A stretch of DNA of 64,000 nucleotides. Origin: Halodesulfovibrio sp. (lineage in GTDB: Bacteria > Desulfobacterota > Desulfovibrionia > Desulfovibrionales > Desulfovibrionaceae). How positions within the stretch are numbered: position 1 is the first letter of the stretch; every line of letters starts with the position of its first letter. This document shows positions 11,321-26,758 of this stretch, in pieces. Below the pieces are notes generated by a model. The model was not told where the DNA came from. It saw only the letters and a program-made list of their open reading frames with translations, and ran no database searches. The stretch is taken from the NCBI RefSeq assembly GCF_025210605.1, contig NZ_JAOARI010000036.1, positions 1-64,000 of the forward strand. Reading direction: 5' to 3'. A program made the position numbers and the translations under genes.

Positions 11321-11397
11321 GGCGAGGTAGCTCAGTTGGTTAGAGCATGCGGCTCATATCCGCAGTGTCGGGGGTTCAATTCCCTCCCTCGCTACCA
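11321..11397 (+). tRNA. tRNA, anticodon CAT (probably elongator Met)
   Basis: A complete 77-nt cloverleaf: acceptor GGCGAGG with CCTCGCT (a G-U closes position 1-72), D-arm GCTC/GAGC, anticodon stem TGCGG/CCGCA with loop CTCATAT, T-arm GGGGG/CCCTC and an encoded CCA. The anticodon CAT would be Met, or Ile if C34 is modified to lysidine. It lacks the features of initiator tRNA. It is identical to the next copy. Confidence 0.92.
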
Positions 11398-11439: not shown

Positions 11440-11516
11440 GGCGAGGTAGCTCAGTTGGTTAGAGCATGCGGCTCATATCCGCAGTGTCGGGGGTTCAATT
11501 CCCTCCCTCGCTACCA
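11440..11516 (+). tRNA. second identical tRNA, anticodon CAT
   Basis: An exact 77-nt copy of the tRNA 42 nt upstream, with encoded CCA. The short spacer and shared promoter imply one dimeric precursor. A hairpin terminator follows at 11550. Confidence 0.92.
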
Positions 11517-16792: not shown

Positions 16793-17893
16793 ATGGCACT
16801 GAGCATCGGTATCGTTGGGCTTCCCAACGTGGGTAAGTCTACCCTTTTCAACGCCCTCACAAAGGCACAGAACGCAGAATCTGCGAACTACCCTTTTTGT
16901 ACAATCGAACCCAACAAAGCGACTGTTCCTGTGCCGGACAAGCGCATTGACGTTCTCACAGAAATTGCAAATCCACAGCGCACATTGCATGCAACTGTAG
17001 ATTTTATTGATATTGCCGGTCTTGTACGCGGCGCAAGTCAGGGTGAAGGTCTTGGTAACCAGTTCCTTGGCAACATTCGTGAAGCGGCTGCTATTTTGCA
17101 GGTTGTCCGCTGCTTTGAAGACGAAAACATTACGCACGTTGACGGCACCGTTGACCCTATTCGCGACATTGAGACCATTGAAACAGAATTGTTGCTTGCA
17201 GACGTTCAGTCTGTAGAAAAGCGTCATGACAAATTGCAGCGCTCCACTCGTGGCAACAAAGCAATGGTTCCAGTTGTAAACGGCATGAAAGAGCTGCTCG
17301 ACCACCTTAACGAAGGTAATCCTGCATCCACTTTTGCTAAACGCGACAGCGACGTGCTTGCTGGTCAGCTGGCAGAGCTTGCTTTGCTCACTGACAAAAA
17401 AATCATCTACTGCGCTAACGTTGATGAAGACGGTCTTGCAGAAGATAACGAGCATGTAACCAAACTGCGTGAATTCGCAGAAAGCCGCGGCTGTGAGCTG
17501 GTAAAAATTTGCGCAAAGGTCGAAGAAGAGCTTCAGGGTCTTGAAGATGAAGAAGCACTGGAACTTCTTGAGTCATACGGCATCAGCGAAAGTGGTCTTG
17601 TACAAGTAATTCAGACTAGCTACCGAACTCTCGGACTCATCTGCTACTTTACAGTGGGTGTTAAAGAGGTTCGCGCATGGACTATTGTTGATGGCTACAC
17701 TGCACCACAGGCTGCGGGTGTTATCCACACCGATTTTGAACGCGGATTTATTCGTGCAGAAGTTATCGCGTATGATGCATTTGTAGAAAATAAAACTGAA
17801 GCAGCATGCCGTGCCATCGGAGTTTTACGCTCTGAAGGTAAGGATTATATTGTTAAAGATGGGGATGTTGTTCACTTCCTCTTCAATGTATAG
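16793..17893 (+). CDS. ychF: ribosome-binding ATPase YchF
   Basis: A universally conserved Obg-family P-loop protein that prefers ATP to GTP and binds ribosomes; it modulates translation and the oxidative stress response. The 366-residue length is typical. The sequence begins [22 protein letters not shown] (P-loop), then [24 protein letters not shown] (switch II). It has YCANVDE in place of the usual NKxD. The C-terminal TGS-like domain ends [21 protein letters not shown] lies upstream of the ATG. A two-part hairpin immediately follows the stop. Confidence 0.96.
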
Positions 17894-17899
17894 TACACA

Positions 17900-17956
17900 C
17901 TTCCCAAATCAATATGGTTACCCTGTTTTTTTAAATAGGGTAACCTGTTTGGGAGG
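17900..17956 (+). promoter_or_regulatory. hairpin that can mask the SBP gene Shine-Dalgarno
   Basis: An inner perfect 9-bp stem, GGTTACCCT (17916-17924) with AGGGTAACC (17937-17945), is capped by an outer stem. There CTTCCCAAA (17900-17908) pairs with TTTGGGAGG (17948-17956), including one G-U. The outer 3' arm contains the GGGAGG ribosome-binding site of the TTG-started gene at 17962. The hairpin could also act as a weak ychF terminator, but only TGTTT follows the inner stem. Confidence 0.65.
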
Positions 17957-17961
17957 AAATT

Positions 17962-18852
17962 TTGAAAAAACTATTTGCAGGATTCACTGCTCTTGTCTTC
18001 TGCGCCTTATCTGTTCTGCTACTTTCCACACCAAGCTATAGCATTACTCTTTCCGAAATCCGTGCCCGCGGAGAACTACGTCACTTAGGCGTTCCCTATG
18101 CCAGATTTGCAGACAACAATGCTGACGGACTTGATTGCCTCCTCATTCGACGCTTTGCGGAACATCTTGGTGTAAAGTACACCTTCATTTCCACCAACTG
18201 GGAAAACGCAATCTCAGACCTCACCGGCATCAACCCCTATTCACCAGATCAAAGCCTCGCAGTGCGTCCCCCAAAAGGCGATTTACTCGCAAATGGATTC
18301 ACAATCCTGCCACAGCGCGAACGCTTTGTACTATTTTCCCACCCAACATTCACCGCCCAAGTGTGGCTACTGGCAAAAGCAAATGCCGACATCCAGCCCA
18401 TATCTCCCACAGGGAACATTCAAGCAGATATTGAAAAAACGGTTGCCAAAACCATCGGGAAAACGGTGTACGGCATCGAAAAAATCTGTATTGATGTCAA
18501 TTTATTTCCAAGCCTTCGTCAAGCAGCCGGTTCTGCGGAAAACATCCCGCTTCACACATTTCATCAGCCACTTTCCTTTGTTACTTCGGAATATAATATA
18601 TTTCTCATGGAATCTCCCAGTGCTTTAATGGCATTAGGTTCTTGGCCCTACACTTTCAAAATTATTGGACCAGTTGCTAAACCACAAAATATGGGCGTGG
18701 CATTTGCGAAAGATTCTGCTGAACTAAGAGATGAATTTAACCGTTTTTTCGAACAATTCTGGAAAAGCGGAGAATACCAAAAACTCGTAAACTGCTATTT
18801 CCCTAATTCTTTCATTTACTTCAATAAATTCTTTACGAAGAGCTTTCCTTGA
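17962..18852 (+). CDS. periplasmic solute-binding protein (SBP family 3-like)
   Basis: A 296-residue exported protein with a signal peptide (about 1-27, ending TPSYS). The rest resembles amino-acid-type solute-binding proteins: LSEIRARGELRHLGVPYARF, DGLDCLLIRRFAEHLGVKYTF, GDLLANGFTILPQRERFVLFSHP and a C-terminal FEQFWKSGEYQKLV. The start is TTG at 17962, six bases after GGGAGG. No ABC permease genes are nearby. Its stop overlaps the start of a hybrid histidine kinase (TGATG), so it is more likely a sensory ligand-binding partner than part of an importer. The ligand is unknown. Confidence 0.82.
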   Translation: MKKLFAGFTALVFCALSVLLLSTPSYSITLSEIRARGELRHLGVPYARFADNNADGLDCLLIRRFAEHLGVKYTFISTNWENAISDLTGINPYSPDQSLAVRPPKGDLLANGFTILPQRERFVLFSHPTFTAQVWLLAKANADIQPISPTGNIQADIEKTVAKTIGKTVYGIEKICIDVNLFPSLRQAAGSAENIPLHTFHQPLSFVTSEYNIFLMESPSALMALGSWPYTFKIIGPVAKPQNMGVAFAKDSAELRDEFNRFFEQFWKSGEYQKLVNCYFPNSFIYFNKFFTKSFP

Positions 18853-21800
18853 TGAACAAACCGCTTGAACAACTTTTTTCGGGTAAAAAATCGTTCAATA
18901 TCATATTGATACTCTGCGTAATAATTGTCTCTGCGTTTCTAATGCTCGGTATTTTACTGCATCGTTCGCAAGGCTCGTTACAACAGATGCGGCAGGAGCA
19001 GTTTCGGAATGACTCGGAAAAAGTTGCAAGTGCGTTTAAAGGATACTTTGCAGAACGGAAAAGAGACCTGCGCACACTTGCCTCAGCTCAAGCTTTTTCA
19101 AGCTATTTTCATAACAAAGCGCTCGGTATTTCACTAGACTACGGCATGCGTGCCATCATTTGGAATATTGAGGTGGTGCTAAAACGTTTTATTATGGAAT
19201 ACAAAGTCGAAGATGAATTCTTTTTTTCCGAAGTTGCTTTCATCGACTATAAATACCGGATGCGTATCCGCGTACTATCCAACAAAAACGCTGAACCACC
19301 TATTTCAATTAAAACAATAACAGAAAAACAACTCATTCCCCCCAGTACTCCCCTTACATTGGAACAGAGTGGCGACAACCCAGAGCTACGCATCTCAATC
19401 CCCTACTTCATTATGGGAAAACACGTCGGCGAGCTGTCAGCAACCCTCTCGTCCACAGCAATAGAAAAATATCTTCAACTGCTCCAAAACTCTGACAGCT
19501 TCAACCTTGTCTTGCTGTACAATAATATCCTTTTTGCACACACCACGTCACCAGATCTGCAATTCAGTATTAACAAGCTTTCGGAAGTACCTCCAAACAC
19601 GCTGCTGCAATTAGACACCGCAGCCCACATCAACGACACACTTGTTCCTATGACAGCGCGTCTTATGCCGATCATACAACGCAAGATTGTCGCCATATCT
19701 TTCATCGAAAGCGAAAAACTGAATCGAGGGCAGCTACCAGACGGCATTATGCTTATCTTTTACGCCATCTTCTTAGCGGCGGCAGCAAGCATTACATTTG
19801 CGGCACATATGATTGTCAAAAATACTTCTCTTGCGCGTAGCCTCAAAGAGGCAGCAGACAGTAAAAAATCAACGGCGGAACATCTGGCAACGCTACAGCA
19901 AGAAATTATTGTCCGCCGAAATGCTGAAATGCACGCGCTCACAGCACAGCAAAAAGCAGAACAATTAACACATGTGGTACCGAGCGCAGTCTTTACAATC
20001 ACAATGGACCGCAAAATAGATAGCTGGAATAAAAGAGCTGAAGAATTAACAGGCTACAGAGCAATCGAAATGATCGGGCAAACCTGCTCGTCTCTTTTTT
20101 TAGATACGTGCAAGGACGAATGTGCACTGTTTCCATACAAACAAAAAACAACATGCGGTAACCAGCACACACTGCGGCAAAAAAACGGTTCTCTGAGAAC
20201 CATCATTAAAAATACCGAGCCGATGCTTGATGGTTTCGGTCAAATTATCGGACTGATCGAATGCTTCGAAGATATTACAGATCAACAAAAGACACTGGCT
20301 GCGCTAGCAAAAACAGAAGCCAACTACCGTGATATTATCCAGAACGCACAAGACGGTATTTTTCAAAGCACATTATCGGGTGAAATTTTGAATGCAAACC
20401 CAGCGTTCTTGAACATTTTTGAATTTAACACTGTTGAAGAGATGCGCCGGTCATTTCGGGGATTTGAAAACCACTTTTATGTCTGCTCAACGCGCAGAGC
20501 AGAATTTGTTAATGCAATGCTCAAAAACCGATTTGTGACTAACTTTGAATCACAAATACGCACCAACAGCGGGCGGTTACTGTGGGTGCTGGAAAGTGCT
20601 CGTTTGCGCACCGCACCGGATGGTTCCATCCGCTTTGAAGGCTTTGTGCGCGATATAACCGTTCAAAAAGAAGCTGAACAAAACCTGATCGCTGCAAAAG
20701 AAGCAGCAGAAGCAGCCAGTACAGCAAAAAACAACTTCCTCGCAAATATCAGTCACGAATTGCGTACCCCCATGAACGCAATCATCGGGATTTCAGAGTT
20801 AGGTTTACGATCTGAAACTGACCCAACCCGCAAGCGCAACATGGAAGTCCTTTATAGAGCCTCTAGCTCTCTGCTCAATCTATTAAATGACTTGCTCGAT
20901 TTTTCCGCAATCGAAGCGAATGTCCTTTCGCTCAAATCTGCACCGTTTTCCGTTCCAGAAATCATGTGCAACATTCGTGATCTCATGCGAGGGGAAGCTC
21001 GCAAAAAAAATCTAGAATTCACTGTCACAACCGACCCATTCTTTCCTCCACTCGTTGTCAGTGACAAAGAACGCGTGAAGCAAATCCTCGTCAACCTTAT
21101 ATGGAACGCGATTAAATTTACAAATGCCGGTGCTATTTCTGTACATTGCTATGCATCGCCCCTTGAATCCGGTGAAGTTGAGACACAATCTCACCACACC
21201 AGTACCATTGCGCAAGAAAAAGTGCTGTTAACCTGTTCGGTTTCAGATACAGGAATCGGCATCCCTTCTGATAAGTTAGAAGAAATTTTCGAAAGCTTTG
21301 CGCAACTGCAATCTTTTGATGCAGCCCCACATGGTGGCATAGGATTAGGTCTTGCTATCTCACAGCGCCTAGCTCTGCGGATGGGTGGAACGATTACAGT
21401 AAAAAGTACCCTTAATCAGGGTTCTACATTCACTGTACAAATCCCGTGCAGTATCCCCTCAGATAACGCTGACCAACCACACTTGCTGTTTGCAGAGTCG
21501 CAAGACACTATTTCTTCCATGCCTCCACTTAATGTACTCGTAGCTGAAGATAACGTGTTCAGTCAGGAAGTATTGATACAAATGCTTAAAGAAGACGGGC
21601 ACACTGTATTTCTCGCAGAACACGGGGAGCAGGTTCTCGAAATTCTTTCCCATACCTCAGTGGATATCATCCTGATGGATGTACAAATGCCGGTACTGGA
21701 TGGGTTAGAAACAACAAAACGCATACGCGCGGGAGAAGTTCCCAACCTTGATGTCACTATTCCCATCGTTACAATCAGTGCTCATGACCCGATAACCTCA

Positions 21801-22316
21801 ACTGATAGTTTCCATAATGGAGAAGTAACGGAATGGCTTCAAAAGCCTATAACCCTTCACGCGTTGCAACAAGTTTTGCGCTCCATATTCACGCCAAAAC
21901 ACCATATAGCAGTCGATACTCATGATTCTGAATTGCTAAAAGACCAAGATTTTACTACTGCAATGCATATTGATTTTGATGTTATTATCGAGATGGTTAA
22001 CGGAAAGCATAAGATAGTTGGAACGATACTACGTACGTATTTATCGTCACTTCCTGCCACACTGGAACTTCTGCAAATAGCATGTAATGAGGCTGATGCT
22101 GAAAAAATAGCAAGCATCACCCATACACTAAAAGCTACTATGGGGTCTGTAGGCGCGGTTGCACTCGCGCAGACCGCACAACAAATGGAACATTTTGCTC
22201 GCAACAATAATATATATGAAGCACAAAATCTTCTTGCAGATTTTATGGAAGGTGCACAGCAGTCTATGGAAGAAGTTACAGACTACTTAGCCCAAAATAC
22301 TAGAGCGTGTTCGTAA
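18852..22316 (+). CDS. hybrid sensor histidine kinase with receiver and Hpt
   Basis: A 1154-residue membrane phosphorelay kinase. Order: TM1 (about 16-37), a periplasmic sensor region (about 40-298), TM2 (about 299-322), a coiled coil, PAS 1 (about 375-480, with a Cys-rich insert near 412-435) and PAS 2 (about 490-605). Then come HisKA (NISHELRTPMN, His about 635), HATPase (WNAIKFTN, DTGIGI, GIGLGLA), a receiver (LMDVQMP, Asp about 943) and Hpt (THTLKATMGS, His about 1091). This is the ArcB/BvgS-type relay layout. Its ATG overlaps the stop of the solute-binding gene, indicating coupling. No output regulator is adjacent; the nearest receiver is at 24429. A TTG one codon earlier is also possible. 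Confidence 0.93.
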   Translation: MNKPLEQLFSGKKSFNIILILCVIIVSAFLMLGILLHRSQGSLQQMRQEQFRNDSEKVASAFKGYFAERKRDLRTLASAQAFSSYFHNKALGISLDYGMRAIIWNIEVVLKRFIMEYKVEDEFFFSEVAFIDYKYRMRIRVLSNKNAEPPISIKTITEKQLIPPSTPLTLEQSGDNPELRISIPYFIMGKHVGELSATLSSTAIEKYLQLLQNSDSFNLVLLYNNILFAHTTSPDLQFSINKLSEVPPNTLLQLDTAAHINDTLVPMTARLMPIIQRKIVAISFIESEKLNRGQLPDGIMLIFYAIFLAAAASITFAAHMIVKNTSLARSLKEAADSKKSTAEHLATLQQEIIVRRNAEMHALTAQQKAEQLTHVVPSAVFTITMDRKIDSWNKRAEELTGYRAIEMIGQTCSSLFLDTCKDECALFPYKQKTTCGNQHTLRQKNGSLRTIIKNTEPMLDGFGQIIGLIECFEDITDQQKTLAALAKTEANYRDIIQNAQDGIFQSTLSGEILNANPAFLNIFEFNTVEEMRRSFRGFENHFYVCSTRRAEFVNAMLKNRFVTNFESQIRTNSGRLLWVLESARLRTAPDGSIRFEGFVRDITVQKEAEQNLIAAKEAAEAASTAKNNFLANISHELRTPMNAIIGISELGLRSETDPTRKRNMEVLYRASSSLLNLLNDLLDFSAIEANVLSLKSAPFSVPEIMCNIRDLMRGEARKKNLEFTVTTDPFFPPLVVSDKERVKQILVNLIWNAIKFTNAGAISVHCYASPLESGEVETQSHHTSTIAQEKVLLTCSVSDTGIGIPSDKLEEIFESFAQLQSFDAAPHGGIGLGLAISQRLALRMGGTITVKSTLNQGSTFTVQIPCSIPSDNADQPHLLFAESQDTISSMPPLNVLVAEDNVFSQEVLIQMLKEDGHTVFLAEHGEQVLEILSHTSVDIILMDVQMPVLDGLETTKRIRAGEVPNLDVTIPIVTISAHDPITSTDSFHNGEVTEWLQKPITLHALQQVLRSIFTPKHHIAVDTHDSELLKDQDFTTAMHIDFDVIIEMVNGKHKIVGTILRTYLSSLPATLELLQIACNEADAEKIASITHTLKATMGSVGAVALAQTAQQMEHFARNNNIYEAQNLLADFMEGAQQSMEEVTDYLAQNTRACS

Positions 22317-25423: not shown

Positions 25424-26758
25424 ATGCCGTTTACTCCGCATACAGCTGAAGAAGTGCAAGCAATGCTTGACGTTATCGGTGTAAGAACCATTGAAGATCT
25501 GTTTGCAGACATCCCTGCGGACATGCGTCCTAAAAGCTTTGACCTGCCTCAAGGCTTAAGCGAAATGGAAACATGTGCTTACCTTGAACAGCTTGCAGGT
25601 AAAAACAATACTGATCTTGTAAGCTTCTTGGGTGCCGGATTCTACAATCACTATATTCCTAAAGCCATCGACAACCTTGTTGGTCGTGGCGAATTCTACA
25701 CTGCGTACACTCCATACCAACCTGAATCCTCACAGGGAACGCTTCAGGCTATTTTCGAATTCCAGACTGCAATCTGCCGTCTCCTCGAAATGGATGTAGC
25801 TAACGCCTCTGTCTACGATGGTGGAACCGCTATCTTTGAGGCTATGATGATGGCAGTTCGTGCTGGTCGAAAGCGTAAAAAAATCGTAATTGATGAGTCT
25901 ATCAGCCCGATTTACCGCGAGATGCTGGACACTTACACAAACAACATCGACGTAGACGTTGTTGTGGTACCGCATACAGAGGGTTTGTCCAATGTAGAAG
26001 CGCTTAAAGCAGCTATTGACGGTGACTGTGCGGGCGTTGTTGTTCAGAACCCTAACTTCTTCGGCAACGTTCAGGACTTTACAGAATTATTCGAGCATGC
26101 CCACGCTAACAAAGCATTAGGCATCATCTCTGTGTACCCTGTCATGCAGTCTGTCATGAAAACTCCTGGAGAAATGGGAGCAGACATTGCCGTTGCAGAA
26201 GCCCAGAGCCTTGGTCAGCCACTTTCATTCGGTGGACCTTACCTTGGCGTCATGTCCTGTTCAAAAAAAATGATCCGCCAGATTCCGGGACGCATTGTTG
26301 GACGCACAGAAGACATCGACGGCAAAACAGGCTACGTGCTCACGCTTCAAGCTCGTGAACAGCATATCCGACGCGCAAAAGCCACATCAAACATTTGTTC
26401 CAACCAAGCCCTGTGCGCTCTTCGTGCCCTTATTCATATGTCATTACTTGGTCCTGAAGGGCTTATACGCACTGCTGAATTAAGCATGGAGCGTGCTCAT
26501 TACCTTGCAGACCGCCTGACAATGATCGAAGGGGTAGAACTGCTTAACGGTGCGCCATTCGGTAACGAATTCGCTATCCGTCTGCCTATCAAAGCTGAAG
26601 AAGCTATTGAGGCACTTATGGACAAAGGCTTTGTAACCGGCTTCCCTGTTGGTCGTTATTACGAAGACATGGACGACGTTCTCCTTGTTGCCTGTACCGA
26701 GCTGCATTCATTCGAACAGATTGGTGTATTCACCGAGCTGTTGGGAGGTATTCTCTAA
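25424..26758 (+). CDS. gcvPA: glycine dehydrogenase (decarboxylating) subunit 1
   Basis: The N-terminal half of a split P protein, the PLP-dependent glycine decarboxylase. The 444 residues match the split subunit 1. Visible blocks are FLGAGFYNHYIPKAI, YTPYQPESSQGTLQAIFEFQT and CSNQALCALRAL. It lacks the PLP lysine, which is in GcvPB. AAGGAGG precedes the ATG, and the stop overlaps the gcvPB start by one base. With GcvH and Lpd it decarboxylates glycine, or in reverse contributes to glycine synthesis from C1 units. Confidence 0.97.
   Translation: MPFTPHTAEEVQAMLDVIGVRTIEDLFADIPADMRPKSFDLPQGLSEMETCAYLEQLAGKNNTDLVSFLGAGFYNHYIPKAIDNLVGRGEFYTAYTPYQPESSQGTLQAIFEFQTAICRLLEMDVANASVYDGGTAIFEAMMMAVRAGRKRKKIVIDESISPIYREMLDTYTNNIDVDVVVVPHTEGLSNVEALKAAIDGDCAGVVVQNPNFFGNVQDFTELFEHAHANKALGIISVYPVMQSVMKTPGEMGADIAVAEAQSLGQPLSFGGPYLGVMSCSKKMIRQIPGRIVGRTEDIDGKTGYVLTLQAREQHIRRAKATSNICSNQALCALRALIHMSLLGPEGLIRTAELSMERAHYLADRLTMIEGVELLNGAPFGNEFAIRLPIKAEEAIEALMDKGFVTGFPVGRYYEDMDDVLLVACTELHSFEQIGVFTELLGGIL

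Follow-up and report, generated by a model that had tools for sequence, protein, structure and literature searches.

Among described systems, those closest to the locus considered here are the cases of translational coupling by RNA unfolding, represented by rpmI-rplT of E. coli (with a spacing of +52 nt), VII-IX of phage f1 and coat-lysis of MS2 (PMC12548453). In these systems the downstream ribosome-binding site is hidden in RNA structure, ribosomes on the upstream gene are expected to open that structure, and the spacing gives a second ribosome room to load. For E. coli, ribosome-profiling data favour structure melting over re-initiation (PMC7538156); according to reviewers of the field, the RNA-unfolding model is not firmly established (PMC12548453). 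The same three features recur in the spacer between ychF and a solute-binding protein (SBP) gene in Halodesulfovibrio, and this spacer differs from the precedents in two respects: the arm that sequesters the Shine-Dalgarno (SD) sequence is placed immediately after the upstream stop codon and not within the upstream gene, and the spacer is spanned by a distinct inner hairpin that covaries. A literature search of an open-licence library did not find ychF and a sensor operon described as a pair of coupled genes. The kind of mechanism is known; for this instance of it, genus-wide, covarying and with an anti-SD arm past the upstream stop, the searches of that library gave no match.

The window, by which we mean the whole analysed stretch of 64,000 nucleotides, carries the three genes concerned on its forward strand. 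The upstream gene, ychF (16793..17893), encodes a YchF/OLA1-type ATPase (Pfam YchF-GTPase_C, 3.1e-37) and ends in a TAG at 17891-17893. It is followed by the gene for a solute-binding protein of the SBP_bac_3 type (17962..18852; PF00497, 1.9e-18), the product of which has a signal-peptide-like N terminus. The TTG start of this gene is at 17962, with five bases between it and 17956; orthologues have GTG or ATG at the equivalent site, and TTG or GTG is the SBP start codon in six genomes. The third gene (18852..22316) encodes a hybrid histidine kinase with the Pfam domain order PAS-PAS-HisKA-HATPase-receiver-Hpt. Its start is probably the ATG at 18852, which shares 1 nt with the SBP stop (TGATG), and not the TTG at 18849, because TAATG is found at that junction in the five nearest relatives. 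Elsewhere in the window, tandem tRNA genes at 11321-11394 and 11440-11513 (Rfam, 67.3 bits each) are possibly identical copies.

The spacer is predicted to fold into two stems, one enclosing the other. In the outer stem, an anti-SD arm, CUUCCCAAA (17900-17908; folds, covariation and the masking calculation described below), pairs over 9 bp with UUUGGGAGG (17948-17956; folds and SD opening cost), which holds the GGGAGG SD at 17951-17956, and two further base pairs form between 17910-17911 and 17946-17947. The inner hairpin, GGUUACCCUGUUU-UUUU-AAAUAGGGUAACC (17916-17945; folds and covariation), which is followed by UG, has a stem of 13 bp (17916-17928 with 17933-17945, one of them G-U) closed by the UUUU loop. 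Refolding agrees with the coordinates and the 9 bp that the initial annotation of this region gave for the outer stem, and likewise places the GGGAGG of the TTG-started gene in the 3′ arm. That annotation had also described an inner stem of 9 bp stacked on the outer one; the inner hairpin is present and enclosed as it had said, but it is 13 bp long and the two stems are not flush, being separated by 7 nt on the 5′ side and 2 nt on the 3′ side.

The minimum free energy of the spacer is -31.5 kcal/mol (z -4.8), a stability equalled by none of 200 shuffles, and z is -5.3 when the SD and start are fixed and only the spacer is shuffled. Among the 46 gene starts in the window, the SD of the SBP gene is the costliest to open, at 11.2 kcal/mol versus 8.6 kcal/mol for the next. 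Its probability of being paired is 0.99 in the genome G000 and 0.4-1.0 in the other genomes of the genus, and the opening cost ranges over ten genomes from 4.9 to 14.9 kcal/mol. The idea that the spacer structure masks the SD of the SBP gene, already put forward from the window's sequence, holds in the models: the SD is paired in the predicted folds of all ten genomes. Strongly paired SDs are also predicted at the starts at 25424 (an ORF of 444 aa; 7.5 kcal/mol) and 26758 (an ORF of 482 aa; 8.6 kcal/mol). Coupling is likely at these starts too, since the former ORF begins 18 nt past the preceding ORF and the latter overlaps its preceding ORF by 1 nt.

The question of whether the structure is maintained in the genus could be addressed in the ten genomes that could be searched. 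The order ychF-SBP-hybrid kinase is found in all ten, with an SBP relative directly 3′ of ychF in each (36-69% identity outside the window's own genome; YchF identity within the genus is 80-96%) and a distance from the ychF stop to the SBP start of 64-72 nt. The SBP/kinase junction is overlapping in 10/10, and in the four more distant genomes the kinase start lies within the SBP gene. Each of the ten spacers is predicted to fold back so that the outer stem contains the SD. The spacer sequences themselves are strongly divergent: the inner stem reads GGUUACCC, GGUCACCC, GGCUACUC, GGUUCUGC or CCGCAGGC, with partners that match, and the outer arm varies among UUCCC-, UUCCG-, UCCUCC- and GUUACCCCGU-like forms.

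An unfitted MAFFT alignment, covering the six closer genomes, has standard pairs in 91.9% of cells, as against 39-57% in controls in which the partners were slid by 1-3 columns. Extended to all ten spacers, MAFFT places the four divergent ones wrongly, and their pairs were aligned by hand. On this basis 70 of 77 cells of the outer helix are paired in eight genomes (G004 and G005 being omitted from the count, as their outer arms are not alignable base by base), with compensatory change in five of the ten pairs, and 71 of 72 cells of the inner helix are paired in nine genomes, with compensatory change in seven of the eight pairs. Swapping arms between genomes matches the observed pairing in 0.1% of trials for the outer helix and in 0% for the inner. 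Since hand alignment is biased toward structure, alignment-free shuffles of single sequences were added: nine of the ten spacers are more stable than at least 298 of 300 shuffles, the exception being G005 (fold z -0.5). Mapped on the ychF tree, the double changes of G003, G007 and G008 each lie on a different terminal branch. Conservation and covariation of both stems, which the initial annotation had named as the check on its proposal, are thus present across the ten genomes.

A ribosome that has a stop codon in the A site shields roughly 9-12 nt of mRNA beyond that codon. The outer 5′ arm begins 6 nt past the ychF stop in the window and about 4-11 nt past it across the genus. We forced the bases past the ychF stop to be single-stranded in the fold calculation and recomputed the cost of opening the SD. 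In G000 this cost falls from 10.0 kcal/mol with no mask to 5.5 with 9 nt masked, 1.0 with 11 nt and 0.6 kcal/mol with 13 nt. A mask of 12 nt reduces the cost in all ten genomes (in G000, to about 0.6 kcal/mol). Most of the other genomes fall as G000 does. In G009 the mask has to extend to 15-17 nt, and the change is smaller in G005 and G006, with a drop of only 2.4 kcal/mol in G006. Support is weak in G006 on this account and in G005 on account of its overall fold (z -0.5). Of 300 shuffled spacers per genome, those with as large a drop at 12 nt number 0-2 in five genomes, 9-22 in four and 38 in G006. The 5′ arm is within reach of an upstream ribosome, and in most genomes the SD is largely freed at about 11-13 nt. 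It is the SD itself that forms the outermost pairs, and therefore a partial invasion by the ribosome suffices.

Given the position of the 5′ arm, a ribosome terminating on ychF is the obvious opener, one that the initial annotation had overlooked, and coupling becomes the simplest mechanism. We consider it fairly probable that the spacer is an SD-masking RNA lock that enforces translational coupling of the SBP and kinase genes to ychF. On a transcript running from ychF through the kinase gene, the outer stem would keep the SD paired and free 30S subunits could not start on the SBP gene; the inner hairpin would nucleate folding and bring the region of the ychF stop beside the SBP start. The leading edge of a ribosome terminating at ychF, covering about 9-12 nt downstream, would strip the outermost pairs, which hold the SD, and the freed SD would allow a ribosome to load on the SBP gene. 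With its start overlapping the SBP stop, the kinase gene would be translated by ordinary coupling, and the output of the sensor pair would be tied to, and capped by, translation of ychF. That the terminating ribosome physically opens the structure is what we infer from the folds and their response to masking, and the tie between ychF and the sensor would presumably serve a stoichiometric purpose.

The lock presumes co-transcription of the three genes, whose order is conserved and whose ychF-SBP spacer contains no terminator. A promoter scan of the window near the 3′ end of ychF gave only a 9-of-12 match at 17824-17851, which is at chance level, and synonymous conservation over the 3′ end of ychF shows no clear rise that would mark a conserved promoter, except in the last few codons; an internal promoter could still be present there. 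The last ychF codons, GTT CAC TTC (17873-17890), are synonymously invariant in the ten genomes and, together with the codon after them, could pair with the SD of the SBP gene, which may be a coincidence, because the same codon choice is common in other genera. A second anti-SD in these codons (CACUUCCUC) was accordingly not counted: apart from the Leu codon, they are also the commonest codons in other genera. Scanning re-initiation appears less likely at this junction because the gap of 64-72 nt contains a strong hairpin. In the random-library screen of Chemla et al., as cited in PMC12548453, coupling was lowered by structure just 3′ of a stop codon, by which token any scanning route would meet an obstacle in the inner hairpin.

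Beyond the genus, inspection of sequence and fold at 45 ychF junctions in other genera of the family did not find the element; a hairpin trailed by a T-run is present at 14 of the 45. In ten genomes from outside the genus, SBP relatives are not beside ychF (eight by position; two have no ychF match at the threshold), and the regions upstream of these relatives contain no two-part hairpin. We therefore rejected the notion that the structure travels with the SBP gene. One scan of genome contigs gave nothing but a remote Treponema SBP. A covariance model built from the six close genomes has a single strong match in each of them. The ten best of the weaker matches, when examined, were ordinary hairpins, mostly clear T-tract terminators, and further genomic copies were rejected on this ground. 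A DNA operator at the palindrome GGTTACCCT/AGGGTAACC was also considered and rejected: three genomes have one copy each of the palindrome, which is absent elsewhere. Being single-copy and with varying spacing between its arms, it is unlikely to be a dispersed regulator site. Another kind of repeat is dispersed in the genus: near-identical inverted repeats GGCTGYCCT-N-AGGRCAGCC, many with a T-run after them and so terminator-like, number 10 to 33 in each of six genomes (G000 plus five close relatives; examples are L112, L113, L114, L116 and L120), and none are found in the other four genomes of the genus. Their lower stem is fixed while loops and upper stems vary, and they are more uniform than expected of independent terminators.

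Other readings of the spacer have to be weighed against the coupling lock. The hairpin might act as a fixed brake that holds translation of the SBP and kinase genes low, with ychF ribosomes opening it to no meaningful extent. Low output is what both the cost of opening, about 5-15 kcal/mol, and the TTG or GTG start in six genomes predict, and cells normally make few copies of a sensor kinase; a brake of this kind, however, needs no fixed site beside the upstream stop, whereas the arm keeps its place in the ribosome's shadow and the release under a 12-nt mask exceeds that of nearly all shuffles in most genomes, and we regard this reading as unlikely. Rather less likely is opening and closing by a regulator acting in trans, whether an RNA-binding protein, a small RNA or a ligand, as the initial annotation had proposed. 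Conservation of the structure over the genus would suit it, as would the A-Y-A-like pattern kept by the 5′ internal loop in the six close genomes, but no loop or internal-loop sequence is common to all ten genomes and the apical loop varies freely. No Rfam family matches above its gathering score, in line with the annotation's remark that no known riboswitch class is apparent; with no conserved loop across the ten genomes, a ligand-binding form of the new class that it suggested finds no such backing. Its thermosensor option fares worst, although known RNA thermometers likewise have their SD in a stem: the predicted SD pairing in G000 is 0.99-1.00 at 10-45 °C and still 0.91 at 65 °C, and in the other nine genomes it is flat or rises slightly between 10 and 65 °C. 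Unlike a thermometer, the element thus has no predicted melting in the growth range, and on these predicted profiles we reject a thermosensor as scarcely credible.

The inner hairpin invites comparison with Rho-independent terminators found in the genus (GGCTGTCCT...AGGACAGCC plus a T-tract), which have a similar hairpin shape of 10-13 bp and, at the top of the stem, a similar CCTG/CAGG; it resembles the common terminator stem GGCTGTCCTG, and may descend from a terminator. Termination or attenuation at the end of ychF, leaky enough for some transcripts to reach the sensor genes, would also be in keeping with the T-run hairpins seen at ychF junctions outside the genus. The inner hairpin differs from those terminators in that no U-tract follows it and an SD-pairing outer stem encloses it, and this pairing of the SD with its arm is left unexplained by termination. 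The terminator scan of the window finds none in the ychF-SBP spacer, and a permissive scan gives a terminator-like site at only one of the ten genus junctions, where it is close to the SD and not at the inner hairpin; we consider termination very unlikely. An element for processing or stability, such as an RNase III site or a barrier to 3′ exonucleases that separates ychF mRNA from sensor mRNA, could account for a long stable stem where, as is probable here, the flanking genes differ in how much product they make. It predicts neither that the SD should form the 3′ arm nor that the adjoining outer pairs should covary, and it is highly improbable.

The coupling lock, if correct, makes this junction a clean natural test of the RNA-unfolding model, because covariation is found genus-wide and the anti-SD arm lies in the shadow of the terminating ribosome. 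It also means that a gene for a housekeeping ATPase and a signalling operon are tied by an RNA structure in all the genus members that were examined. YchF is a ribosome-associated stress ATPase, and for this reason the junction could be read as a sensor of translation status, in which the number or rate of ychF termination events under stress would set the amount of the sensor and hybrid kinase; we hold this reading to be speculative and on balance improbable. YchF is reported to regulate the translation of leaderless mRNAs under stress (PMC8138138), a role that makes the link to a sensor operon intriguing, its relevance here being hypothetical. Were the translation-status reading true, a universal translation factor would be linked to environmental signalling via one conserved hairpin.
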